Counted from the first letter of the stretch, positions 18,231 through 41,986 are shown. The stretch is DNA of 64,000 nt from Haloglomus litoreum (GCF_029338515.1 NZ_CP119988.1:3906001-3970000); one strand, 5' to 3'. Program-made: numbers and translations. Notes: generated by a model not told the origin, from the sequence alone.

Positions 18231-18342
18231 GGGCCGATAGCTCAGTCCGGCAGAGCGTCTGGCTTTTAACGTGACGTGCCCGTTCGACCGGGGACTCGCG
18301 GAAGAGACCAGACGGTCGGGGGTTCAAATCCCTCTCGGCCCG
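18231..18342 (+). tRNA. tRNA-Lys (UUU) with a 38-nt intron
   Basis: The acceptor stem GGGCCGA/TCGGCCC, D stem GCTC/GAGC, anticodon stem TCTGG/CCAGA and T arm GGGGG-TTCAAAT-CCCTC fold cleanly. Anticodon TTT is at 18265-18267. A 38-nt intron at 18269-18306 interrupts position 37/38. The precursor forms a textbook archaeal bulge-helix-bulge: outer helix UCUGG/CCAGA, 4-bp central helix CUUU/GAAG, 3-nt bulges UAA and AGA with cuts UA^A and AG^A, and inner helix CGUGA/UCGCG. The splicing endonuclease should remove it. CCA is not encoded. Confidence 0.93.
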
Positions 18343-19226: not shown

Positions 19227-20315
19227 TCAGCCCCGCGTCGGGAGGTAGGCCAGCGCCACGACCATCACGGCGCCGAGCCCCGAGAGGATGGAGACGCCCC
19301 AGAGGCCGTTGACGCGCTCCTCGAAGTAGTCCTGCCTGGCGACCTGGTTCTGGTAGCTGCCGACATCGGGGGTGATGACGACGGTGCTGGGGTTGGGGAA
19401 GTGGACCGTGTGAAGCCGGCCACCCAGCGTGACGTTGGCGCCCTCGGTCAGCTCGGTCTTCGTGGTCCGGGGGCCGGTCCACTCGAGGCGCACGCGCTCG
19501 CTGGTGATGTTGGCGATGGTCGTCTCGTTGGCCGGGGCCGAGAGGTCCTCGCCGGCCCGGAAGGTGAGCGTATCACCCTCGTCGAACGTCGTCGACGCCG
19601 GCTCGGGGAGGTACTCGTCGAGCGGCTGCGTGGTGCCGTTGCGGTACCGGACGAACTGGCCGTCCTCGCCACTGTACACCTGGTTCTCGACCTCGGGGTC
19701 GTTCTGGAGACGCTCGGTCACGTTGAACCGCTGGACCGCCTGGAACTCGTCGACCGACGTGCCGTTGGGGATGACGACCTCGTAGTTGTCCCCCCAGACC
19801 AGCGTCGCGGAGGTGTTGCCGATCCCGGTGACCGTCGCGGTGGTGTTCTCGTACGGCAGCGTGTCGCCGACGGAGAACGTGGTGGTCTGGTTGCCGGCGT
19901 CGTCCTCCAGCGCGAAGGTCCCGTCCGTGATGTTGGCGGTCTGCTCGCTCCCGTTGAAGCGGATGGGGTCGCCGTCCTCGATGGTGGCCGAGAACGCACC
20001 CTCCTTGCCGGTCCACGAGGAGTTGGTCGGCGAGAGCGCCGTCCCGTTGGCCAGCTCCGCGCTGTACTGGAACGACTCGTTCGTCTCCGAGAGCTGACCG
20101 GCGAGCGTCGTAGCGCTGCCTTCCCCGCCCGAACTCGTCTCGGAGATGTTCGAGACGGTGTACGTCTGGCCCTCGACCGTCATGGAATCGCCCACTGCGA
20201 GTTCCTCGCCATCCAGGTCGATGGTGGGCTGCTGTGCCACCGCGATGACCGAGTAGGCACTCGCCCCCATGACGACGAAGAAGACGAGGTAGATCGCCGC
20301 GACTCGTCGTTGCAT
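19227..20315 (-). CDS. Surface protein anchored at both ends, beta-repeat modules
   Basis: A 362-residue protein with an N-terminal uncleaved or signal helix (IYLVFFVVMGASAYSVIAV, about 8-26), a long extracellular Thr/Ser/Asn-rich region and a C-terminal membrane helix (LSGLGAVMVVALAYLP) ending in TRG. The exterior seems to contain about three related beta modules, each with a GD(S/T)(M/L) strand followed by a (V/A).NI or VTGI strand (LAVGDSMTVEGQTYTV, FSVGDTLPYENTTATV, FDEGDTLTFRAG). Many N-X-S/T sequons predict heavy N-glycosylation. There is no PGF-CTERM motif. The function is unknown; it lies next to four PGF-CTERM paralogues and could share their surface role. Confidence 0.75.
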   Translation of the reverse strand: MQRRVAAIYLVFFVVMGASAYSVIAVAQQPTIDLDGEELAVGDSMTVEGQTYTVSNISETSSGGEGSATTLAGQLSETNESFQYSAELANGTALSPTNSSWTGKEGAFSATIEDGDPIRFNGSEQTANITDGTFALEDDAGNQTTTFSVGDTLPYENTTATVTGIGNTSATLVWGDNYEVVIPNGTSVDEFQAVQRFNVTERLQNDPEVENQVYSGEDGQFVRYRNGTTQPLDEYLPEPASTTFDEGDTLTFRAGEDLSAPANETTIANITSERVRLEWTGPRTTKTELTEGANVTLGGRLHTVHFPNPSTVVITPDVGSYQNQVARQDYFEERVNGLWGVSILSGLGAVMVVALAYLPTRG

Positions 20316-20434: not shown

Positions 20435-21556
20435 TCAGTCGCGCCGGAGCGCGAGCAGCGCCGCCGCCAGCAGTCCGGCGAGCGCGGCCGCCGCGCCGAA
20501 TCCCGGCCCCGCACCGACCGTCGGGGTCGCCGGCGCGCCACCGGGGTTCCCGCCACCGACTGCGGTCGCCGTCCCCGTGGCCGCCGACCCGCCGGTGTCC
20601 TGCCCGCCGGCCTGTCCACCGTCGTCCGAGCCACCGCCAGCGTTCGTCGCCGTGGCCTCGGCGGTGGCTGTCGCCGTCGCGGTCGCTGCCGCCTCGACCG
20701 TCGCGGTGGCCGTCGGCTCCGCGGTCGCCGTCGGCGTCGCCGCTGGAGTCGCCGTCGCGGTCGCTGCCGCCTCGGCCGTCGCGGTGGCCGTCGACTCCGG
20801 GGTCGCCGTCGCCGTCGGCTCCGCGGTCGCCGTCGCTGTTGCCGTCGCCTCGCTACTGTCGCTGGAACCCGACTCGGACGGCGGCGGCCCCAGTTTCTCG
20901 CGGGCCTCCTGCTCGCTCCCGCACTCGCAGACGTAGTAGTAGTGCGAGTCCAGCGTCACCTCGAACTGGTTGCCGTTGTAGCCGGTGCCGTTGAGGAAGC
21001 CGTTGATCTGGTACCAGCCCGGCTCCGTCGGCTGCGTGTAGCACTCGTTCTGGACGGCGACGACCTCGTCGACGTCGTTGATGGCGATGGGCTCGCCGGC
21101 GAGGTCACCCTGGTCGAAGAAGTCGATGACGATCTCGTGTTCGTTGAACTGCGAGTTCTCGCGGGCCGCCAGCAGCGACTCGTCGGTCTTCGTCCCCTCG
21201 TCGTCGTTCTCGCGGTCGACGCCGAACGCCGCCGTGTTCTCCGTCGAACACTGCGAGAAGTCGACGTCCTCGTTCCCGATGATGAGGAACCCGGCCGCCT
21301 CGTACCCCTTCGGCGACGGTGTCCCCTCGAACGTCCCGTCGAGCGCGGCGAGATGCTGGATGCTCCCGTTCGCCCGGTTCTGGTCACCGGGGTAGTGGTC
21401 GATCTCGTTCGGCAGGAACACCGTGTAGTCGCCGTTCGTCCCGTGGTTCGTCCCGCTTCCGGAACCGGTCGCCCCGGCACCACCCGCCACGACGAGAACC
21501 GCAACCACCACAGTTGCCACCATCAACGCACCACTTCCTTCGTATCTGCCCACCAT
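20435..21556 (-). CDS. PGF-CTERM surface protein, paralogue 1 of 4
   Basis: A 373-residue secreted protein: Sec signal (about 1-30), a globular core of about 190 residues, a Thr/Ala/Pro stalk (TATATATAEPTATATPES and so on, about 235-320) and a C-terminal PGF-CTERM signal (VGAGPGFG, hydrophobic helix, RRD). The core has invariant cysteines at 103 (FSQCSTENTAAFG), 172 (ECY) and 210/212 (VCEC), plus EPGWYQI, NGTGYNGN and SHYYYVCEC. PGF-CTERM proteins are cut by archaeosortase A and linked to lipid. This copy and paralogue 2 share a short form without the GGAETGKEDGD-type insert. The function is unknown. A TATA-like TTTAGTA sits about 35 bp upstream of the ATG. Confidence 0.85.
   Translation of the reverse strand: MVGRYEGSGALMVATVVVAVLVVAGGAGATGSGSGTNHGTNGDYTVFLPNEIDHYPGDQNRANGSIQHLAALDGTFEGTPSPKGYEAAGFLIIGNEDVDFSQCSTENTAAFGVDRENDDEGTKTDESLLAARENSQFNEHEIVIDFFDQGDLAGEPIAINDVDEVVAVQNECYTQPTEPGWYQINGFLNGTGYNGNQFEVTLDSHYYYVCECGSEQEAREKLGPPPSESGSSDSSEATATATATAEPTATATPESTATATAEAAATATATPAATPTATAEPTATATVEAAATATATATAEATATNAGGGSDDGGQAGGQDTGGSAATGTATAVGGGNPGGAPATPTVGAGPGFGAAAALAGLLAAALLALRRD
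20650..20860. repeat. Low-complexity repeat coding a Thr-Ala stalk
   Basis: Degenerate gtcgcggtggccgtcg-type repeats encode the stalk of paralogue 1. A longer unit beginning gccgtcgcggtcgctgccgc recurs 84 bp apart, at about 20669 and 20753, pointing to internal duplication. The other three paralogues have similar stalk repeats around 21900-22080, 23330-23480 and 24720-24900. Confidence 0.7.
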
Positions 21557-21659
21557 TCGGAGTCTTGTCGCCCGGAACGGATGGAACTACTAAACGCTTC
21601 GTACATCCGGAGACGGAAGGAGCAGCCGTCCGACGGCGGTTCGTGCGTCCGCTCGGGGG

Positions 21660-22787
21660 TCAGTCGCGCCGGAGTGCGAGCAGCGCGACCGCCAGCACGC
21701 CACCCAGCGCCGCCACCAGTCCGAAGCCCGGCCCCGCACCGGCCGTCGGCGTCCCCGGGCCGTCCGCCTGCTGGGCGGTCTGCTGCTGGGTCTGCTGTCC
21801 GCCACCGCCGGTGTTCGCGTCCGCACCGGCCGTGGCCGTCACCGTGGCCGTCTGGCCGGCCGCGCCACCGCCGGCACCGCCGCCACCGCCCGCGCTCGCA
21901 CCGCCGTCGGTCGACGTGTCCGTCGTCGTGGCGGTCGGCGTCGCCGTGGCAGTCGGCGTCGTCGTGGCCGTGGCCGTCGGTTCGGGCGTCGCCGTGGCCG
22001 TCGCCGTCGACGAACCACTGCTATCACCGGTGGACTCGGTCGCCGTCGGCTCCGGGGTCGCCGTCGGCGTCGCCGTCGAGGAGCCGTCGTCGGGGTCCTC
22101 GCCGGACCCCTCGTCGGACGGCGGCGGGCCCAGCTTCTCGCGGGCCTCCTGCTCGCTGCTACACTCGCAGATGTAGAAGTAGTGCGACCGGACGGTGCCC
22201 TGGTCGTCGGTGTCGATGTAGTTCCCGTTGTAGCCCGTGCCGTTGATGCGGGCGTTGATCTGGTACCAGCCCGGCTCGTCGGGCATCCCGTAGCAGCCGG
22301 TCTGGGCCGCCACGACCTGGTCCTCGTCCTGCAGGGAGACCGGCTCCCCGGCGAGCGAGTCCCCGCCGTAGAAGTCAACGTAGATGGAGTGCTCGTTGAA
22401 CGCGGAGTTCTCCCGGTGCGAGAGCAGCCCCTCGTCGGTCTTGGTCCCGGGGGAGTCGTCGTCCCGGTCGATGCCGAACGCCTTCGTGTTCTCCGTCGAG
22501 CACGTGCCGAAGAGGACGTCCTGACTGTAGATGGTCAGGGTGTCCATCCGCTCGAAGCCGTCCGGCGAGGAGGTCTCCTCGAACAGGCCGTTGGCCGCGG
22601 CGTAGTGCCGGATGTCCGCGCTATCCGCTCCCGGCTGGTGGCTCTGGTCGTTGGGCAGCCCCACCGTGTAGTTCAGTCCGATGCCGTTGTCGTGCGGTGT
22701 CGATGAAGCCCCACCCGCAGCGGCTCCACCCGCCACCACCACCGCCGCGAGCGAGAGCGCCGCGACGACGAGCGCCGATGTTCGCAT
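21660..22787 (-). CDS. PGF-CTERM surface protein, paralogue 2 of 4
   Basis: A 375-residue relative of the gene at 20435. The start is set at the ATG at 22787 (MRTSALVV) rather than the upstream in-frame ATG because it gives a normal signal peptide. The core keeps NYTVGLP, TCSTENTKAFGIDRD, GCYGMPDEPGWYQI, NGTGYNGN and SHYFYICECSSEQEAREKLG. The stalk is TATATATPEPTATATT-like, then Gly-rich and Gln-rich (QQTQQQTAQQ) before AGAGPGFG and RRD. The promoter box TATTTATG lies at 22835-22843, giving a short leader. Relative to paralogue 1 it replaces the second half-strand before SHYF with a DDQGTVR insertion. The function is unknown. Confidence 0.85.
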   Translation of the reverse strand: MRTSALVVAALSLAAVVVAGGAAAGGASSTPHDNGIGLNYTVGLPNDQSHQPGADSADIRHYAAANGLFEETSSPDGFERMDTLTIYSQDVLFGTCSTENTKAFGIDRDDDSPGTKTDEGLLSHRENSAFNEHSIYVDFYGGDSLAGEPVSLQDEDQVVAAQTGCYGMPDEPGWYQINARINGTGYNGNYIDTDDQGTVRSHYFYICECSSEQEAREKLGPPPSDEGSGEDPDDGSSTATPTATPEPTATESTGDSSGSSTATATATPEPTATATTTPTATATPTATTTDTSTDGGASAGGGGGAGGGAAGQTATVTATAGADANTGGGGQQTQQQTAQQADGPGTPTAGAGPGFGLVAALGGVLAVALLALRRD

Positions 22788-22832
22788 GCAGGGAACCAAG
22801 TACTTGAAATGCAAAAATTCTGTGTTATGTCG

Positions 22833-22850
22833 AGCATAAATACCGTGTTA
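22833..22850 (-). promoter_or_regulatory. TATA-box promoter of PGF-CTERM paralogue 2
   Basis: On the minus strand GGTATTTATGCTCG lies about 50 bp upstream of the ATG at 22787, in an AT-rich island of about 100 bp. It matches the boxes before paralogues 3 and 4 (TATTTAT or ATAAATA cores). Confidence 0.55.
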
Positions 22851-23006
22851 TAGCACTTCATGCAGAAAAGCTCGAGTTTGTCGAGAGAGGGCATAAACGA
22901 ACCTGCATGAGACGCCCGTGGGACGGTCCGAGCGGGACCCCGTGGTCGGCCCGACGACGGTGCCGTCGCCGCGCGGAGCGAAGACCGCGAGAGCTCCAGC
23001 AGTCAC

Positions 23007-24278
23007 TCAGTCACGCCGCAACGCGAGCAGCGCCGCCGCCGCGAGACCGCCCAGCGCCGCCACCAGCCCGAAGCCGGGACCGGCGCCCGCGGTCGGCGTC
23101 ATCGGGCCCGAACCCGCCTGAGCCTGCTGGGCACCGCCCGCACCCGCGCCGCCACCACTACCGCCGCTGCCGCCACCACCGCTACCGCCACCGCCGCTGC
23201 CGCCACCACCACCACCGCCACCGGCACTCGCGCCGGCCGTGGCGCTCACGGTCGCGGTCCCGCCGGCCGCACCGGCGCCACCACCGCCACCGCCGCCGGC
23301 ACTCGCGCCGTCGTCACCGGAGGCATCGGTCGCCGTCGGGGTCCCGGTGGCCGTCGCCGTCGGGGTCGCGGTGGCCGTCGCGGTGGCCGTCGCCGTCGGG
23401 GTCGACTCACCGCCACCGTCACCACCACCGCCACCGGCCGTGGCCGTCTGCTCGGGGGTCGCCGTCGCCGTCGCCGTCGTGGTGTTGCCGCTACCGCCCT
23501 CGTACGGGTTCTCCTGGCCCGGCGGGGCGCCGAGCTGGTTGTACGCCTCCTTCTCGGTCTGGCACTCGCAGATGTAGAAGTAGTGCGAGGTCAGCGACAC
23601 CTCGACCTCGTTGCCGTTGAACGCCGTCCCGTTGACGAAGCCGGAGATCTGGTACCAGCCCGGGTCCGTCGGCATCCCGTAGCAGGGCCCGCCGCCGGAC
23701 TTGTACCCCTGGTGGGCGACGATCTGGTCGTCCGGATACATCTCCGCGTTCCCGTCGCCGTCCTCCTTGCCGGTCTCGGCACCGCCCTTGTCGTTGGGAC
23801 TGGGCGAGGCCAGCTCGTCACCCTCGTAGAAGTACACCTCGATGGAGTGGTCGTTGAAGGCGTTCTTCTCCATGTACCGGAGCAGGTCGATGTCGACCTT
23901 CGTGCCGGGGTCGTCGCTGTTCCGGTCGATGCCGAACGCCGCCGTGTTCGACGTCGAACACTGGGAGAAGTCGATGTCCGGGTTGTCGATCTTCAGGTAC
24001 TTCAGCTGCTCGACGCCCTTGGAGGCGCCCGCCTCGTCGAACAGCTCCTGGGTACCCGCGGCGTAGTGGTTGATGCTCCCGTTGTTCGGTCCGCCGGGGT
24101 TCTTCGACCGCGGGTAGTGGTCCGTCGCGAACGGGAGGTTCACCGTGTAGTTCCCGTTCTCCGCGCCGTGGCCCGCATCGGCCGTGGAGGGCGCAGCACC
24201 GGCACCACCGGTCACCCCCACCACCACCGCGATGACCGCGACCGCGCCGAGGATGGCCGCCGTACGCTGTCGTGACAT
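23007..24278 (-). CDS. PGF-CTERM surface protein, paralogue 3 of 4
   Basis: A 423-residue protein of the same family. The signal peptide MSRQRTAAILGAVAVIAVVV is followed by GAENGNYTVNLPFATDHYP, FSQCSTSNTAAFGIDRN, PCYGMPTDPGWYQISGF, NGTAFNGN and SHYFYICECQTEKEAYNQLG. It carries an about 25-residue insert (DKGGAETGKEDGDGNAEMY) absent from paralogues 1 and 2 but present in 4. The stalk is TATATATPEQ-type and then very Gly-rich (GGGGSGGGGSGG), before AGAGPGFGLVAALGG and RRD. Three sequons (NYT, NGS, NGT) are conserved with paralogue 4. The function is unknown. The long poly-Gly spacer is the most extended of the four and is probably the most variable part. Confidence 0.85.
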   Translation of the reverse strand: MSRQRTAAILGAVAVIAVVVGVTGGAGAAPSTADAGHGAENGNYTVNLPFATDHYPRSKNPGGPNNGSINHYAAGTQELFDEAGASKGVEQLKYLKIDNPDIDFSQCSTSNTAAFGIDRNSDDPGTKVDIDLLRYMEKNAFNDHSIEVYFYEGDELASPSPNDKGGAETGKEDGDGNAEMYPDDQIVAHQGYKSGGGPCYGMPTDPGWYQISGFVNGTAFNGNEVEVSLTSHYFYICECQTEKEAYNQLGAPPGQENPYEGGSGNTTTATATATPEQTATAGGGGGDGGGESTPTATATATATATPTATATGTPTATDASGDDGASAGGGGGGGAGAAGGTATVSATAGASAGGGGGGGGSGGGGSGGGGSGGSGGGAGAGGAQQAQAGSGPMTPTAGAGPGFGLVAALGGLAAAALLALRRD

Positions 24279-24300
24279 GTGTTCCCCACCTCCGACTGGG

Positions 24301-24342
24301 ACACCCTAATCTCGTCGCAGGGAGTACACGGGTATTTATCCA
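24301..24342 (-). promoter_or_regulatory. Promoter of PGF-CTERM paralogue 3
   Basis: The minus-strand box GATAAATACC (24331-24340) lies about 55 bp before the ATG. The flanking plus-strand sequence (ccctaatctcgtcgcaggga) is conserved upstream of paralogue 4, so promoter and leader were duplicated with the gene. Confidence 0.6.
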
Positions 24343-24427
24343 TTTTGCATTCACTGAACGGATGGTTAATAAGGCAGGTCGACAGACCCGGGCAATCGGG
24401 CGTCAGCGTGCCGTATGGTGATTCGGT

Positions 24428-25690
24428 TCAGTCGCGCCGGAGTGCGAGCAGCGCCGCCGCCGCGAGACCGCCCAGCGCCGCCACCAGCCCGAAGCCAGGG
24501 CCGGAGCCCGCGGTCGGCGTCATCGGGCCGGCGCCCTGCTGGTCGGCCTGCTGTGAGTCCCCGTCAGCGCCCGCACCGCCGGAGTCACCACCGCCGCCGG
24601 CGCTCGCACCGGCCGTGGCACTCACGCTCGCGGTCCCGCCGCCCGCACCCGCACCACCGCCGGCACCGCCACCCGCACCGGCGGAATCGCCGCCATCATC
24701 GCCACCGCCACCAGCCGTCTCGGTCGCGGTTGGCGTGGGGGTCGGGGTCGCCGTCGGCGTGGCTGTCGGCGTCTGGGTGGCCGTCGGTGTGGACGCGCCG
24801 CTCCCGCTGGCCGTCGATGTGGACGCGCCGCTCCCGCCGCCACCAGAGTCCGGGGTGGCCGTCGGAGTCGCGGTCGACGAGGCGTTGCCGGACGAGGAAC
24901 CGTCGTCGGCGTACGGGTTCTCCTGGCCCGGCGGGGCACCGAGCTGGTCGTACGCCTCGCGCTCCGACTGGCACTCACAGATGTAGAAGTAGTGCGACGG
25001 GATGGTCACGTCGGCGTAGTTCCCGTTGAACCCGGTGCCGTTGATGAAGCCGGAGATCTGGTACCAGCCCGGCTCCTCGGGCATCCCGTAACAGGGCCCG
25101 CCGCCGGACTTGTACCCCTGGTGGGCGACGATCTCGTCGTCCGGGTACACCTCGGGGTCCTTGTCGCCGTCCTCCTTGCCGGTCTCCTTGCCCCCCTTGT
25201 CCTGTCGGCTCGACGCCGCGAAGTCGTCGTCGTCGTAGAACTGGACGACGATGCTGTGGGCCTCGAACCGGGAGTTCTTGCGGTAGCTCAACAGCGAGAC
25301 GTCCGTCTCCGTCCCGGAGGCATCGTTGTCACGGTCGATGCCGAACGCCGCCGTGTTCGACGTCGAACACTCCGAGAAGTCGATGTCCTGGTTCGAGATG
25401 ATGATGTAGTCCACCTCCTCGAGTCCCTCGGGAACGTCCTTCTTCTCGAACAGCTCCGGTGTCGCCGCGGCGAAGTGGTTGATGCTCCCGTTGTTCGGTC
25501 CGCCGGGGTTCTTCCCCCGGGGGTAGTGGTCCGTCGCGAACGGGAGGCTCACCGTGTAGTTCCCGTTCTCCGCACCGTGGCGAAGTTCCGACGGCGAGGA
25601 CGCCGAGGCCCCCACCCCGCCGGCTATCGCGCTGACGGTGAGGAGCAGCACCATCGCTCCGACGCTCACGACAGTCGTAGATTCTGTCAT
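24428..25690 (-). CDS. PGF-CTERM surface protein, paralogue 4 of 4
   Basis: A 420-residue protein closest to paralogue 3. The start is the ATG at 25690 (MTESTTVVSV); a GTG at 25702 in frame is less likely. After the signal come NGNYTVSLPFATDHYPRGKN, FSECSTSNTAAFGIDRD, the DKGGKETGKEDGDKD insert, PCYGMPEEPGWYQISGF, NGTGFNGN and SHYFYICECQSEREAYDQLG. The stalk is TATQTPTATPTATPTPTPTA-like, with Gly/Asp-rich segments, then GSGPGFGLVAALGG and RRD. The same four cysteines are present. The gene is probably transcribed alone from its own TATA box, like the other three. The function is unknown. Confidence 0.85.
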   Translation of the reverse strand: MTESTTVVSVGAMVLLLTVSAIAGGVGASASSPSELRHGAENGNYTVSLPFATDHYPRGKNPGGPNNGSINHFAAATPELFEKKDVPEGLEEVDYIIISNQDIDFSECSTSNTAAFGIDRDNDASGTETDVSLLSYRKNSRFEAHSIVVQFYDDDDFAASSRQDKGGKETGKEDGDKDPEVYPDDEIVAHQGYKSGGGPCYGMPEEPGWYQISGFINGTGFNGNYADVTIPSHYFYICECQSEREAYDQLGAPPGQENPYADDGSSSGNASSTATPTATPDSGGGGSGASTSTASGSGASTPTATQTPTATPTATPTPTPTATETAGGGGDDGGDSAGAGGGAGGGAGAGGGTASVSATAGASAGGGGDSGGAGADGDSQQADQQGAGPMTPTAGSGPGFGLVAALGGLAAAALLALRRD

Positions 25691-25710
25691 GTACGCCGGC
25701 ACGGGTGGGA

Positions 25711-26176: not shown

Positions 26177-27667
26177 ATGACAGACAGCATGGCAGAGGAA
26201 TCAGGAGACGCGGGCGGCGGTCGCGACCGCCGCTCGTTCCTCAAGTACGCGGGGGCCGGTGGGGCCGCCGCGGTCGCAGCGGGTTGCAAGACACGAGACA
26301 ATCCCGGCGGTGGCGGCGGCTTCGAGAGCCCCGCCGGCAACGCCACCAGCACCGGGAGCGGCACGCCGGCACCACAGCCGCTCGCCGGCGAGAGTATCAA
26401 CATCGGGTGCCTGGCGCCCCAGCCCGAGAGCTTCCCCGTCGGCCAGTCGATGTGGAACTCGATGCAGCTGGCCGTCGAGGACATCAACCAGAACGGCGTG
26501 CCCGGCATCGGCGGCCGCGGCATCCTCGGCGCGAAGCTGAACGCCAAATCGGGTAACACCGAGGCCTCGCCGGGGACGGGGCTCAACGAGTTCAACCGCC
26601 TCGTCCAGGCCGAGGGCTGCAAGACCACGTTCGGGACCTTCCTCACGCAGGTCACGCTGCAGTGCTTCAACGCGATGAAGGCGACCCAGACGGTCCACAT
26701 CACCACGGCGGCGGCCGGACCGAAACCGGGTCGCATCGTCCACGAGCGCTACGACGAGTTCAAGTGGCACTTCCGTGCCGGCCCGATCAACTCCTTCGAC
26801 CTCGCACGCGCGGAACTCGAGTTCCTCAACCTCTACGCCGACAAACTCGGCTGGGACTCCGCGGCGGTCCTCATCGAGAACATCGCTCCCTTCGACCCGT
26901 TCGCGGAGCTGCTCGAACCGAACATCGGCGAGTTCTTCGACGACGTGCCGGTGTTCAAGCGCTCCTCGTCGGGGACGACGAACTGGACGCCGCTGTTCGA
27001 CGAGGTCGAGTCCTCGGGGGCCGACGTCAACCTCATCGCGCAGGCGCTGACGGGCACGGCCGCCGTGAAGCAGTGGGCCAACCAGAACCGGGACTTCGAG
27101 ATGGGCGGCATCAGCCTGCCCGCGCAGATCTACGAGTTCTGGGAGGAGGTCTCGGGCGCGTGCCAGTACATCTTCACGATGAACGCGGTCACGCCCCAGA
27201 CCACGAACACGCCCCGGACCCAGGACTTCATGAAGCGGTACCGCAAGAAGTTCGACACCTATCCGGTCTACTCCGGGCCCATCACCTTCGACGCGGTGAA
27301 GGCCTACGCCGTCGCGATGGCCCGCTACGTCCTCGACAACGACCTCGAGCGCATCCCCACCAACGAGGAGATGGTCGACGCACTCGAGACCTACAAGTTC
27401 GACCAGGGGACCATCCTGCCCGAGATCAAGTTCACCCCGCCCGAGGCCGACTACGCACACGAGCCGGCCTGGACCTCCATGAAGGAGACGGGCGTCCCGG
27501 TCTGGCAGCAGTGGCAGATCGACGAGGACATCGCCGAGGACTACGGGGTCATGCACTCGTTCGCCCCGGAGCAGAACAAGACCTCGCCGTACGCCTACCC
27601 CGACTGGATCGACTACCCCAGCGACCACCCCGCCAATACGGAGGGCCCCCCGGGCAAGGACGCCTGA
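26177..27667 (+). CDS. livJ: Branched-chain amino-acid-type ABC transporter binding lipoprotein
   Basis: A 496-residue periplasmic-binding-protein-type lipoprotein. The Tat signal has RDRRSFLKYAGAGGAAAVAAGC, giving twin arginines and a lipobox Cys, as in most haloarchaeal solute receptors. After a Gly/Pro/Ser linker the type I fold begins at INIGCLAPQ, with the LivJ-like QLAVEDINQNG and ITFDAVKAYAVAM segments. It should capture substrate outside the cell and deliver it to the LivHM permease. Substrate could be a branched-chain amino acid, urea or another small amide or aromatic compound; the pocket cannot be read here. First gene of a five-gene operon. Confidence 0.88.
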   Translation: MTDSMAEESGDAGGGRDRRSFLKYAGAGGAAAVAAGCKTRDNPGGGGGFESPAGNATSTGSGTPAPQPLAGESINIGCLAPQPESFPVGQSMWNSMQLAVEDINQNGVPGIGGRGILGAKLNAKSGNTEASPGTGLNEFNRLVQAEGCKTTFGTFLTQVTLQCFNAMKATQTVHITTAAAGPKPGRIVHERYDEFKWHFRAGPINSFDLARAELEFLNLYADKLGWDSAAVLIENIAPFDPFAELLEPNIGEFFDDVPVFKRSSSGTTNWTPLFDEVESSGADVNLIAQALTGTAAVKQWANQNRDFEMGGISLPAQIYEFWEEVSGACQYIFTMNAVTPQTTNTPRTQDFMKRYRKKFDTYPVYSGPITFDAVKAYAVAMARYVLDNDLERIPTNEEMVDALETYKFDQGTILPEIKFTPPEADYAHEPAWTSMKETGVPVWQQWQIDEDIAEDYGVMHSFAPEQNKTSPYAYPDWIDYPSDHPANTEGPPGKDA

Positions 27668-27728
27668 GGCGAGTCACCAGAACGCATCTCAACCACACAC
27701 GAAGGAAACCAACCACACTACACAAACC

Positions 27729-28610
27729 ATGGTCAGTCTCGGAAACGTCATCATCAACGCCATCTCGATCAGTTCCCTCTACGCGATCATCGCGATCGGG
27801 TTCACGCTGATCTTCGGTGTTGGTGGCGTCCTGAACTTCTCGCACGGCGCGCTAATCACCATCGGGGCGGAGGCCTCGTGGCTCATCTCCGGAGGCAGCT
27901 CCCCGCTGGAGCTGGGGCTCAACCCGGCCGTGGGGCTCATCGGCGGCATGATAACTGCCGCACTCGTGAGCGGCGGCCTCTACCTCGGGGTCGTCCGGTT
28001 CGTCGAGGACGAGCCGGTCACGCTGCTCATCCTCACGTTCATCATCGGGTTCTTCATCCAGCACGCCTGCCGGGTGTTCCTCACCGGCACAGGGAACTTC
28101 TCCGTCGACCTCATCGTCGAGGGCAGCACGAACGTGGGTGGCATCGGGTTCCAGAACATCAGCGCGTTCATCTTCGTGCTGTCGATGCTGCTGGTCGTCC
28201 TGACGGGCGTGTTCGTCTCCCGGACGAAGACCGGGAAGGCGATCCTCGCGGTGTCGATGTCCGACAAGGGCGCGGCCATCGTCGGCATCGACTCGCGGAA
28301 GATCAACCTCATCACGTGGCTCCTGGCGGGTGCGTTCGCCGGCATCGCGGGCGTGCTCCTCACGATGAAGAACACCGGGACCTGGACGATGGGTACCCAG
28401 CCGCTCATCCTGGCGTTCTCCATCGTCATCCTGGGTGGTCTGGGCTCGATCAAGGGCTCCGTCGTTGGGGCCTACATCATCGGGTTCACCGAGACCATCA
28501 CCACCCAGTACATCGACTCCTCGTTGCAGGGGTTCTCCGCACTCGTCCTGCTGATCGTGTTCCTACTCGTCAAGCCCGAAGGCCTGTTCGGGCGGGAGGC
28601 TGCTGAATAA
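27729..28610 (+). CDS. livH: Branched-chain amino-acid ABC transporter permease LivH
   Basis: A 293-residue multi-spanning permease. The N-terminus has SLYAIIAIGFTLIFGVGGVLNFSHG, the LivH hallmark (IGF.LI.G...N..HG). Later helices include VTLLILTFIIGFFIQ and the cytoplasmic EAA-like loop ILGGLGSIKGSVVGAYIIG. Length is normal. The stop overlaps the livM start (TAATG), showing tight coupling. It forms the membrane channel with LivM. Confidence 0.93.
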   Translation: MVSLGNVIINAISISSLYAIIAIGFTLIFGVGGVLNFSHGALITIGAEASWLISGGSSPLELGLNPAVGLIGGMITAALVSGGLYLGVVRFVEDEPVTLLILTFIIGFFIQHACRVFLTGTGNFSVDLIVEGSTNVGGIGFQNISAFIFVLSMLLVVLTGVFVSRTKTGKAILAVSMSDKGAAIVGIDSRKINLITWLLAGAFAGIAGVLLTMKNTGTWTMGTQPLILAFSIVILGGLGSIKGSVVGAYIIGFTETITTQYIDSSLQGFSALVLLIVFLLVKPEGLFGREAAE

Positions 28611-29857
28611 TGTCGACCGAGAACGAATCCATCATCGGTAATTCGACCGGCGCCGAGCGTCGCCAGGCGGTGCTCGAGAAGCTCAACCCCATCACGATGC
28701 CCCTGCGGTACCAGATCGGGCTGCTGGGGCTCCTGCTGTTCGTGCTGCTCCCGACGACGCGCTACCCCGACCAGATGGGGGGGCCGACCACCCTCATCTT
28801 CCTCGCCATCTTCGGGATGTCGTGGGACGTCGTCTCGGGGTACACCGGACAGCTCTCGTTCGGGCACGCGTTCTTCATCGCGCTGGGCGGCTACACCAGT
28901 GCCATCCTCGACATCCAGCACGGCATCACGCCGGTCGTCGGGATCCCCGTCGGGATGATCGTGGCGGGCATCGGCGGCGTGCTGGTCGGGCTCCCCGCGC
29001 TCCGACTCCGCGGCCCGTACCTGTCGCTGGTGACGCTCATCGTCCCGATCATCCTGTCGAAGCTGTTCACGCTGTTCAACAACAGCTTCACCCCGCTCGG
29101 CATCCCCATCGCGCCCGACGGGCTCGGTGGCCGTAACGGCCCCGGCCTCCCGACACAGCTGTTCGGCATCGACGGCAGCGGCTCCGTCGTGGAGCTGGCC
29201 TCGGGCTACTCCGGCATCCAGCAGACCGCACTCGCGAACTACTACTTCGCACTCGGGCTGATGGTCGTGGTGCTGATGGTGTTGATCGGCGTCACCCGGT
29301 CCTCGGCCGGGTCGGTGTTCACCGCCATCCGCGAGGACGAGGACGCCGTCGCCGCCGCCGGACTGGACGGCTCGAAGTTCAAGCTGTTCGCGTTCGTCCT
29401 CTCGGCGCTCGTCGCCGGGCTCGGCGGCGCTATCTGGGTCCACACCATCAAGACCCCGACGCCCCTGGGCATCCTCGGTCAGGACGACATCCAGCAGAGC
29501 ATCAACCTCATCATCATCTCCATCCTCGGCGGGACCGGCACCATCGTCGGCCCCATCGTGGGGGCGGTGGTGTACGCGGCGACCGGCATCGTCATCGGGG
29601 TGATCGACCCCCTCATCGGCTTCGACCTGGCCAACCTGCGACCGCTGCCGCTGCTGGCGGCCGCGATGGCCGTCCTCGTGTTCGCGCCCGGTGGCATCCT
29701 CCGGGCGAGCATCCGGGGCGGCCGGATGGTGCTGGCCTCGGCCCGCGGCGAGGAGTACGAGGGTGAGTCGGTGGGCGGCGACGGTGACTCCGCCCTCGGA
29801 CAGATCATCGAGAAGTACCGCGCGGAACTGCGTGACATCATCGACGAGCGTCGATAA
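28610..29857 (+). CDS. livM: Branched-chain amino-acid ABC transporter permease LivM
   Basis: A 415-residue permease with the LivM signature GYTGQLSFGHAFFIALGGYTSA and a second half that includes SIREDEDAV-like AIREDEDAVAAAGLDGSKFKL and ISILGGTGTIVGPIVGA. About ten hydrophobic segments are visible. It has a 30-residue N-terminal and a 45-residue acidic C-terminal extension beyond the bacterial core. The start ATG overlaps the livH stop by one base; livG follows 2 bp after its stop. Confidence 0.93.
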   Translation: MSTENESIIGNSTGAERRQAVLEKLNPITMPLRYQIGLLGLLLFVLLPTTRYPDQMGGPTTLIFLAIFGMSWDVVSGYTGQLSFGHAFFIALGGYTSAILDIQHGITPVVGIPVGMIVAGIGGVLVGLPALRLRGPYLSLVTLIVPIILSKLFTLFNNSFTPLGIPIAPDGLGGRNGPGLPTQLFGIDGSGSVVELASGYSGIQQTALANYYFALGLMVVVLMVLIGVTRSSAGSVFTAIREDEDAVAAAGLDGSKFKLFAFVLSALVAGLGGAIWVHTIKTPTPLGILGQDDIQQSINLIIISILGGTGTIVGPIVGAVVYAATGIVIGVIDPLIGFDLANLRPLPLLAAAMAVLVFAPGGILRASIRGGRMVLASARGEEYEGESVGGDGDSALGQIIEKYRAELRDIIDERR

Positions 29858-29859
29858 CA

Positions 29860-30660
29860 ATGAGTACTGATCAACAGGAGAGCGGCGAGCGCCTGACGCC
29901 CGAACAGAGCGGGTTCGGCCCCCAGGACGGTGTCCTCGTCGCCAACGACCTGCGGAAGGAGTTCGGCGGACTGACGGCGGTCGACGACCTGTCGTTCGCC
30001 GTCCAGGAACAGGAGATCCTCGGCTTCATCGGCCCGAACGGCGCCGGGAAGTCGACCACGTTCAACTGCGTCACCGGCTTCTACGAGCCGACCGACGGCA
30101 CCGTCTGGTTCAAGGGCGAGGACGTCACCGGGCTGGACTCCCACGAGATGGTCCAGGCGGGGATGGCCCGCACCTTCCAGGACTTCGCCCCGCTCTCGGA
30201 CCGCACGGTGGTCCGGAACGTGGCGCTGTCGCTGGCGCCGGACAAGCTGTTCACGCTCGCGGGCGTGGGCGGCGAGACCACGCGGCTGGCCGAGGAGATC
30301 TGCCGCCGCGTCGGGCTGGGCGACCAGCTCGAGCAGACCCCCAGCGAACTCCCGCACGCCGGGATGCTGAAGCTGGAGCTCGCGAAGGCCATCGCGACGA
30401 ACCCCGACCTGATGCTGGTCGACGAGCCGTTCGCCGGCCTGTCCGGCCAGGAGGTCCAGGAGCTGACGGACGTGCTGCTCAGCCTCCGGGACAACGGCAT
30501 GACCCTCATCGTGGTCGACCACAACATGCGTGGCCTGCTCAACCTCATCGACCGCGCGTTCGTCATCCAGTTCGGCGCGAAGATCGCCGAGGGGTCGCCC
30601 GACGAGATCACTGACGACCCGAAAGTTCAAGAAGCGTACCTCGGTGGTGATGAGATATGA
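29860..30660 (+). CDS. livG: Branched-chain amino-acid ABC transporter ATPase LivG
   Basis: A 266-residue ABC ATPase. Walker A GPNGAGKST (about 57-65), Q-loop near ARTFQDF, Walker B NPDLMLVDEPFAGL and the H-loop VVDHN are present. The ABC signature position reads LPHAGMLKLELAKAIA instead of the usual LivG L.YGQQR..EIARAL, so the canonical Gly-Gln pair is altered; transport may depend on LivF's intact signature. Its last codons overlap livF by ATGA. It energises the LivHM permease from the cytoplasmic side. Confidence 0.92.
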   Translation: MSTDQQESGERLTPEQSGFGPQDGVLVANDLRKEFGGLTAVDDLSFAVQEQEILGFIGPNGAGKSTTFNCVTGFYEPTDGTVWFKGEDVTGLDSHEMVQAGMARTFQDFAPLSDRTVVRNVALSLAPDKLFTLAGVGGETTRLAEEICRRVGLGDQLEQTPSELPHAGMLKLELAKAIATNPDLMLVDEPFAGLSGQEVQELTDVLLSLRDNGMTLIVVDHNMRGLLNLIDRAFVIQFGAKIAEGSPDEITDDPKVQEAYLGGDEI

Positions 30661-31415
30661 GCAGCCAGTCCCGAGCGGGTGCCGGTGCGGGTGCTGCCGC
30701 CGGCGGCAGCACGGTACTCAAGGCCGAGAACGTCCAGGTCTCCTACGGCAAGGTGACCGCCCTGCGTGGCGTCGACCTGGAGCTGAACGAGGGTGAGCTG
30801 GTCTCCCTGATCGGCCCGAACGGTGCCGGGAAGACCACCTTCTGCGACACCATCAACGGCTTCCTCGGCTACGGCGGCAACGTGGAGTTCCGCGGGACGG
30901 AGGTCTCCAGCGTCCCACGCGACCAGCTGGTCGACCGCGGGATGATCTACTGCACGGAGGAGCGGGACCTCTTCGGCTTCATGGACGTCGAGGACAACCT
31001 CCGGCTCGGCGCCTACGCCATCGACGACGAGAGCTACGTCGAGCAGCAGCTGGAGTTCGTCTACGACCTCTTCCCGCGCCTGGAGGAGCGGACCGACCAG
31101 AACGCCCGCTCGATGTCCGGCGGCGAGCAGCAGATGCTCGCCATCGGCCGCGCGCTGATGGGCGACCCGGACCTCCTGGTGCTGGACGAGCCGACCATCG
31201 GCCTCGCGCCGGTCATCCTCGAGGACATCTCCCAGGCCATCGACCCCATCCAGGAGCAGGGCGTCTCCATCCTCCTGACCGAGCAGAACGTCACGTTCGC
31301 GCTCGACCACGCCGACCGGATGTACCTGCTGGAGAACGGTGAGGTCGTCAAGACCGGCACCCCCGAGGAGCTGCGCGGCGACGACTACATCCGCGAGACC
31401 TACCTCGGCGGGTAA
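30657..31415 (+). CDS. livF: Branched-chain amino-acid ABC transporter ATPase LivF
   Basis: A 252-residue ABC ATPase. A 20-residue Ala/Gly-rich N-terminal extension precedes the core. Walker A GPNGAGKTT, complete signature MSGGEQQMLAIGRAL, Walker B LLVLDEPTIGLAP and the H-loop TEQN are all intact; the LivF-type 'LLTEQN' ending replaces the usual switch His with Gln-Asn, as is typical of LivF. Last gene of the livJHMGF operon; no clear terminator follows. Confidence 0.93.
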   Translation: MSSQSRAGAGAGAAAGGSTVLKAENVQVSYGKVTALRGVDLELNEGELVSLIGPNGAGKTTFCDTINGFLGYGGNVEFRGTEVSSVPRDQLVDRGMIYCTEERDLFGFMDVEDNLRLGAYAIDDESYVEQQLEFVYDLFPRLEERTDQNARSMSGGEQQMLAIGRALMGDPDLLVLDEPTIGLAPVILEDISQAIDPIQEQGVSILLTEQNVTFALDHADRMYLLENGEVVKTGTPEELRGDDYIRETYLGG

Positions 31416-35325: not shown

Positions 35326-35401
35326 AGCCATGGGCCGGATTTGAACCGGCGATATGCGGCTCTGCAGGCCGCCGCGTTCGGCCGGACTCTGCCACCATGG
35401 C
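35326..35401 (-). tRNA. tRNA-Cys (GCA)
   Basis: On the minus strand the acceptor stem GCCATGG pairs with CCATGGC, the anticodon stem GCGGC/GCCGC encloses loop CTGCAGA, giving anticodon GCA, and the T arm CCGG-TTCAAAT-CCGG fits. The D stem is weak (only two sure pairs). Discriminator base U follows; CCA is not encoded. In many haloarchaea this tRNA directly follows 5S rRNA; here an acyl-CoA dehydrogenase gene lies between them. Confidence 0.92.
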
Positions 35402-36955: not shown

Positions 36956-37007
36956 GTGTGATGAACACGCGAGCGGCCGAGCGGCCGCTCGCGGTGAGTA
37001 ATGAATG

Positions 37008-37129
37008 GCAGGCGGCGAATCGGTGTTCCCAGAGGCTCGCGCACTCCAGTACTGGCCGAAACGCTGGCGGGCTTAACTACCGTGTTCGGGATGGGTACGG
37101 GTGTGGCCCCGCCGCTGTGGCCGCCTTAA
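37008..37129 (-). rRNA. rrf: 5S ribosomal RNA
   Basis: Minus strand. It begins TTAAGGCGGCCACAGCGGCG, contains CCCGTACCCATCCCGAACAC and GTACTGGAGTGCGCGAGCC and ends in GCCGCCTGCC, pairing with the 5' GGCGGC of helix I. About 122 nt. The 5' end is flanked directly by a tRNA-like minihelix. The 3' end is placed by helix I and may be a few nt off. Confidence 0.95.
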
Positions 37130-37175
37130 CGCCGACCGACGGATTCGAACCGTCGCGATACCAGTGTCGGTGGCG
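37130..37175 (-). ncRNA. tRNA-like element before 5S (tRNase Z signal)
   Basis: The minus strand between 23S and 5S contains CGCCACC, then GACGG-TTCGAAT-CCGTC, a perfect T-arm mimic, then GGTCGGCG immediately before the 5S 5' end. CGCCACC pairs with GGTCGGCG with one bulge, giving an acceptor-plus-T-arm minihelix. In Haloferax the 5S 5' end is cut by tRNase Z at such a tRNA-like element. Confidence 0.8.
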
Positions 37176-37230
37176 AGATCGCGTATGCGTGTGATTTCCA
37201 GTTAGCGCCTGGACCCGTTCACGGAGTCCG
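37175..37230 (-). other. 3' half of the 23S processing stem
   Basis: gagatcgcg..gtgtgatttccag to ggagtccg is complementary to 40161-40216 (the 5' half). The near-perfect inverted repeat encloses the whole 23S gene and contains the bulge-helix-bulge sites at which archaeal splicing endonuclease excises pre-23S. Confidence 0.85.
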
Positions 37231-37236
37231 AAGGTA

Positions 37237-40149
<2,913 letters not shown>

Positions 40150-40160
40150 TGACTATAACT

Positions 40161-40216
40161 CGGACCCTGTGAACGGGTCCAGTGTGCGCCTGGAAATCAC
40201 ACGTACACGCGATCTC
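40161..40216 (-). other. 5' half of the 23S processing stem
   Basis: Reverse-complementary to 37175-37230, with shared arms ctggaaatcacac...cgcgatctc. Together they form the pre-23S BHB stem. Confidence 0.85.
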
Positions 40217-40346
40217 ATCTGCAGCGTTGCGGGTGGGCAACCTGCATCAACCCTTCCCACTCACGCTTGCACGGAGTGGTGCATCGGTCTGTTACGGGAA
40301 AGCGCAGGATGCCACTTGAGGGCATCGCTTTGCTTCCCCGCAAACA

Positions 40347-40418
40347 TGGACCCACTGGGATTCGAACCCAGGGCATCCTCCTTGCAAAGGAGGCACTCTA
40401 CCGCTGAGCTATGGGCCC
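40347..40418 (-). tRNA. tRNA-Ala (UGC) in the 16S-23S spacer
   Basis: Minus strand. Acceptor GGGCCCA/TGGGTCC, D arm AGCTCAGCGGTAGAGT, anticodon stem CTCCT/AGGAG with loop TTGCAAG giving anticodon TGC, T arm CTGGG-TTCGAAT-CCCAG, discriminator A. 72 nt, no intron. tRNA-Ala(UGC) in this spacer is usual for haloarchaea. Confidence 0.97.
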
Positions 40419-40420
40419 TT

Positions 40421-40472
40421 CGTTAGCCTTGACAGTTCTTAGGTGCTCGGTCGACCCTCGTCGAACGTCCGA
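40421..40472 (-). other. 3' half of the 16S processing stem
   Basis: cgttagccttgacagttc...gaacgtccga is complementary to 42025-42075. The pair brackets 16S and carries its BHB cleavage sites. Confidence 0.85.
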
Positions 40473-40514
40473 AGCGAAAGGTGGGCCCACCACAATGGGT
40501 GGGTCCCGGTCATT

Positions 40515-41986
<1,472 letters not shown>

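Follow-up and report, generated by a model that had tools for sequence, protein, structure and literature searches.

A stretch of 64,000 nucleotides from Haloglomus litoreum (GCF_029338515.1 NZ_CP119988.1:3906001-3970000), hereafter the window, carries four adjacent minus-strand genes (20435-25690) whose exported products share an apparently undescribed cysteine-containing domain, here termed the Cys-core. The Cys-core family is genomically associated with one LivKHMGF-type importer, which in the window lies directly upstream of the four genes. This joint travel of family and importer suggests that the exported domains help the importer to catch its substrate.

The complete LivKHMGF-type ATP-binding cassette (ABC) importer occupies 26177-31415 on the plus strand. 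It consists of a LivK-type substrate-binding protein (26177-27667), which has a Peripla_BP_6 domain, a twin-arginine translocation (Tat) signal and a lipobox-like AGC, followed by the LivH-type (27729-28610) and LivM-type (28610-29857) permeases and the LivG-type (29860-30660) and LivF-type (30657-31415) ATPases. Profile searches with LivK matched GABA-B receptors and numerous HAAT-type binding proteins, but no match was near enough to assign a substrate.

Among 148 genomes of the same family, orthologues of this LivK (E < 1e-120) occur in 18, and all 18 also carry the Cys-core. The only Cys-core genome lacking a LivK orthologue (G128) is represented by an assembly that is 72% complete, and four Natronomonas genomes (G122, G123, G125 and G134) lack both. 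Core and importer are paired in Haloglomus, Halorarius, Natronomonas and a fourth genus. Adjacency was assessed in 19 genomes by setting all 101 core loci against every Peripla_BP_6 gene. Within 1.5 kb of a LivK-type gene lie 17 of the 101 loci, against 1.2 expected, and within 8 kb 32 loci (76 of 150 copies), against about 4 expected; for multicopy loci the latter count is 18 of 22. The genome of the window encodes 11 LivK-type proteins, and both of its four-copy Cys-core clusters adjoin one.

The association takes several forms. The cores are divergent from LivK in three genera (Haloglomus, Halorarius and g21), and in Natronomonas they are on the same strand, upstream of LivK. At least six arrangements of core and LivK were found, including that of the window, a tail-to-tail arrangement with a second, different liv operon, pairings with two other Haloglomus LivK paralogues and, in Natronomonas, a divergent single core downstream of LivF and a core with another LivK. 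Most core-linked LivK proteins form one clade (95% support in the Shimodaira-Hasegawa-like approximate likelihood ratio test, SH-aLRT), apart from the other tested LivK proteins of the window's genome. The LivK-linked cores fall on both sides of a well-supported split in the core tree (99%), in which long branches make finer placement unsure.

Architecture, probable anchoring and domain of the four proteins

A preliminary description of the four genes had recognised a single architecture, and all four conform to it: each protein, 373 to about 423 residues long, has a Sec-type signal peptide, a core, an acidic stalk of the Thr/Ala/Gly/Pro type, 119-142 residues long, and a PGF-CTERM tail. Gene 1 (20435-21556, 373 residues) has its core at 20870-21451, with cysteines C103, C172, C210 and C212, followed by a Thr/Ala stalk. 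Gene 2 (21660-22787, core at 22110-22694) is built alike and has an ATG at 22787 in a reading frame that opens with TTG at 22814. Gene 3 (23007-24278, 423 residues, core at 23511-24173) and gene 4 (24428-25690, core at 24920-25582, with an ATG at 25690 in a frame opening with GTG at 25702) represent an insert-bearing subfamily. The proposed division into genes 1 and 2 and genes 3 and 4 is confirmed by inserts of about 17 and about 6 residues and by the grouping of genes 3 and 4 in the core tree (99% SH-aLRT). Core length is about 185 residues in genes 1 and 2 and about 212 in genes 3 and 4 (overall about 185-215), and cores 2-4 are 52-59% identical to core 1. The four cysteines, in the motifs CST[ES]NT, CY and CEC, are kept in all four cores, as had been claimed. 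The further motifs listed also hold in general, with the exception of NYTV in gene 1, where DYTV stands and that N-glycosylation sequon is absent; each core has 2-3 sequons.

The tail of gene 1 (20438-20521, minus strand; residues 346-373, TIGR04126) alone passes the PGF-CTERM cut-offs of Pfam (26.9 against 18.8 bits) and NCBIfam (31.3 against 24.5). Genes 2-4 score slightly below the Pfam cut-off (15.7-16.7 bits), and genes 2 and 4 reach 15.6 and 20.3 with the NCBIfam model. Despite these scores the GPGFG...ALLALRRD tail is plain in genes 2-4, and the PGF motif, hydrophobic segment and basic end expected of PGF-CTERM substrates are present. Two adjacent archaeosortase A (ArtA, TIGR04125) genes scoring above the cut-off lie in the same genome (G000:C1:1146429-1148430), so that lipid anchoring of the four proteins at the cell surface is likely. 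In Haloferax volcanii, C-terminal processing of ArtA substrates has been linked to lipid anchoring (PMC7157517).

The core was earlier said to resemble no named domain, and this agrees with Pfam, NCBIfam and PHROGs scans and PDB sequence searches, none of which found a characterised domain. The window's genome holds 12 Cys-core copies, eight of them outside the four-gene cluster, and this recurrence of the core is far beyond chance. Across the family the domain is spread over Haloglomus, Halorarius, part of Natronomonas and one further genus, with up to 18 copies per genome; a sharper model recovered 150 copies in 19 genomes of these four genera. Beyond them only weak, cysteine-free relatives were detected. 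One of the copies on record is a single protein with two tandem Cys-core domains beside a LivK gene (L175:9264-11000). A weak first-round match in G071 (L032) proved to be an unrelated oxidoreductase-like frame. A viral origin was rejected, as viral contigs contained no relative and BFVD yielded no fold match at E < 0.001.

Profile comparison relates the Cys-core to a widespread haloarchaeal family that is nearly free of cysteines, alignment A6 (hhalign 98.3%, E=1.2e-14, 102 columns around GIDRG-D and GDEVV-NP-AG-Y), for which Pfam and NCBIfam have no model. On this profile match the Cys-core is a derived branch of an unnamed haloarchaeal surface domain that has gained cysteines; two of these (C1 and C2) are in every distinct Cys-core and set it apart from A6 proper. 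A6 domains (L051, L031, L145-L168) show GIDRGDD..G...D, LGGSYSL and NPQSSGG, often precede a PGF-CTERM tail, and occur twice in some proteins. In the core tree, the window copies of each subfamily pair clearly with H. halophilum copies and the Natronomonas copies form a separate group, a topology indicating that tandem expansion took place separately in the Haloglomus and Natronomonas lineages. The earlier proposal of a diversified, exported, cysteine-containing family is upheld for a family that was not previously described and has expanded within one lineage.

AlphaFold2, run with 31 relatives on the core of gene 1, predicted a beta-sandwich with a mean predicted local distance difference test (pLDDT) score of 87 and a predicted template modelling (pTM) score of 0.83. 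A second model, of the L049 member, reached a pLDDT of 69 and was left out of the fold search. The best PDB fold matches are the DEv-Ig adhesin domains of ClfA, SdrG/SdrE, Als3/Als9 and ACE (E 3e-5 to 1e-3), together with TTHA1873. Their template modelling (TM) score is only about 0.45 (best TMq 0.46, E 3e-5), short of the TM of at least 0.5 set for assignment to the DEv-Ig adhesins, and Pfam and PDB sequence searches gave no sequence homology of the core to a known adhesin domain. The core is therefore described as a predicted Ig-like beta-sandwich, with no membership of the DEv-Ig adhesin families claimed. The ligand or contact role suggested for the family in the preliminary description would fit such a predicted adhesin-type fold.

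The CEC pair had been suggested as a possible metal-binding or disulfide-forming site. C1 (CST-NT) and C2 (CY) are kept in all 100 distinct cores. Of these cores, 84 have CxC as their C-terminal pair and 13 have CxxC; in three the pair is missing. These three, from two separate parts of the tree, have lost both cysteines and kept C1 and C2. Natronomonas cores with an extra loop cysteine also have a partner for it (10 of 10), and where a fifth cysteine immediately follows the core, a sixth comes 15-20 residues later. Since cysteines are gained and lost in pairs, C1-C2 and CxC/CxxC probably form two separate disulfides, and of the two earlier suggestions disulfides are favoured over a single metal site. 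A metal-binding or redox surface protein, in which CxC/CxxC and the other two cysteines would make one metal site or thiol-disulfide centre, is a highly unlikely alternative. Motifs of the C-D/E-C and C-x-x-C kind are typical of both metal sites and thiol-disulfide centres, and no VKOR oxidase gene was found in the window's genome, which counts mildly against enzyme-assisted oxidation, though only for the VKOR route, other disulfide-forming routes not having been searched. The pairwise loss of CxC in two lineages that retain C1 and C2, and the pairing of the added cysteines, fit separate disulfides and speak against one four-cysteine site.

Possible roles of the stalked heads

Many haloarchaeal PGF-CTERM surface proteins have no assigned role. 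For the Cys-core proteins it is tentatively proposed, with slightly less than even confidence, that the stalked, anchored Ig-like heads assist the neighbouring LivKHMGF-type (HAAT family) importer, which is of the amino-acid/amide type, as accessory components that capture ligands. Archaeosortase A would anchor four surface proteins, each presenting one Ig-like head on a flexible stalk. Either outside the S-layer or in the space it covers, the heads, stiffened by the C1-C2 and CxC/CxxC disulfides, would bind the substrate of the importer or some larger molecule bearing that substrate. Captured substrate would then be passed to the lipoprotein LivK, raising its supply, and the diverged tandem copies could widen the range of ligands. 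A broader and more doubtful extension is that lipid-anchored, disulfide-stapled, stalked Ig-like families serve as interchangeable co-receptors feeding a dedicated HAAT-type importer whose substrate range would be set by the tandem paralogues; this would be a new form of archaeal nutrient capture. A functional link would show how an archaeal cell bearing an S-layer collects solutes for its importers.

Several observations weigh against ligand capture for the importer. No LivK gene is near 69 of the 101 core loci, and at least ten of the examined loci (10 of the 37 displayed) adjoin an HVO_0513_N/HTH_10 regulator instead. Close second copies of the window's LivK in three Haloglomus genomes (G047:C1:608529, G049:C1:675110 and G050:C28:86494) have no core within 8 kb. 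The co-occurrence and adjacency counts are not independent, because the genomes share ancestry. Cores that are divergent from LivK do not share a transcript with it. The genomic association is observed, and ligand binding, physical contact with LivK and hand-over to it are candidate properties of the heads. As solitary copies neighbour HTH_10 regulators, the importer is one of at least two contexts of the Cys-core, and different systems may have recruited the cores as a general module for capture or contact.

The solitary genes beside an HVO_0513_N/HTH_10 regulator include L066, L069, L074, L080, L083, L188 and L191, several of which also lie beside an aldo/keto reductase; several solitary copies adjoin an aldo/keto reductase or a major facilitator superfamily (MFS) transporter. 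Directly downstream of the solitary copy at 3535078 in the window's genome (L067) lies a polar-amino-acid ABC operon, which was not counted as a second transporter link, since it is missing beside the orthologues of that copy in two other Haloglomus genomes.

The main rival holds that the heads are adhesins, comparable to MSCRAMM and Als proteins in binding other cells, surfaces or matrix polymers, and that adjacency to the importer reflects shared regulation or habitat. This is rather unlikely, even though the top PDB fold matches are adhesin domains, stalked, anchored and multicopy diverged heads are typical of adhesins, and most core loci are not beside LivK. The fold match holds only at the level of a beta-sandwich, and adhesion leaves the specific co-occurrence with one LivK clade unexplained. 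That co-occurrence might also be passive, if core and importer became linked in an ancestor and were inherited or transferred jointly without working together. The restriction to four related genera would suit such a history, as would the conserved position of two flanking genes, DUF7119 and 19227-20315. This explanation is nevertheless quite unlikely, given that adjacency persists while orientation and side vary between genera, that the pairings involve several different LivK paralogues and core subfamilies, and that the 19227-20315 family is kept in genomes without the core. A third rival starts from the regulators that directly adjoin some cores: the heads would sense extracellular molecules and be controlled with, or feed, HTH_10-type regulators. 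It is improbable to a similar degree as the metal-site reading, for no cytoplasmic part would be left after archaeosortase processing to pass a signal, and the four window genes have no adjoining HTH_10 regulator.

Other features of the window

Next to gene 1, a conserved minus-strand gene (19227-20315) encodes an exported membrane protein with no assigned role, which has a signal and a C-terminal transmembrane segment and no recognised domain. It was considered as a partner in the module and rejected: it is present in 113 of the 148 family genomes, with or without the Cys-core, and is therefore probably not part of the module.

An rRNA operon on the minus strand (37007-41986) comprises 16S (40515-41986), tRNA-Ala, 23S (37238-40152) and 5S genes, and accounts for the dip in GC content at 36-42 kb. 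A tRNA-Cys gene lies at 35326-35401. A 112-base tRNA gene on the plus strand (18231-18342), found by Rfam and missed by ARAGORN, probably contains an intron.

Comparison with known systems

The domain family is undescribed and its anchoring scheme is known; the importer setting was not found described in the literature searched, which yielded no account of a PGF-anchored Ig-like accessory protein for the HAAT importer class. Its parent domain, predicted fold and likely disulfide pattern can now be stated for the family, along with a specific candidate partner, the importer.

Like the binding and accessory proteins of HAAT-family importers (LivKHMGF, Urt), the Cys-core proteins are encoded beside such an importer and distributed with it. 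HAAT binding proteins (LivK/UrtA) have the Peripla_BP_6 fold, however, whereas the Cys-core, a predicted beta-sandwich of about 190 residues with no Pfam match, does not, and LivK is encoded by a separate gene. With PGF-CTERM/ArtA substrates such as the S-layer glycoprotein (TIGR04126, PF18204), the four proteins share export, a Thr/Ala/Gly/Pro-rich stalk and a C-terminal GPGFG followed by a hydrophobic stretch and Arg. Their heads are unrelated in sequence to any named family; matches of the S-layer glycoprotein models to the window proteins span the tail only, and three of the four tails are just under the curated cut-offs. The DEv-Ig adhesins of bacteria and yeast (ClfA, SdrG, ACE and Als3) and Thermus TTHA1873 resemble the Cys-core proteins in ending a stalked, anchored protein with a two-sheet Ig-like beta-sandwich, yet at a TM of about 0.45, with 7-15% identity and no common sequence motif, membership of that group is not supported. 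The A6 family (for example L051, L031 and L147), homologous by profile comparison, shares GIDRG-D--G--D and GDEVVVVY--V-NP--AG-Y-V and often consists of a single domain with a stalk and PGF-CTERM. In contrast to the Cys-core, the A6 domain is free of cysteines and lacks the C-terminal CxC block and the LGPPP end. Its range takes in many genera of haloarchaea, that of the Cys-core four genera of one family.

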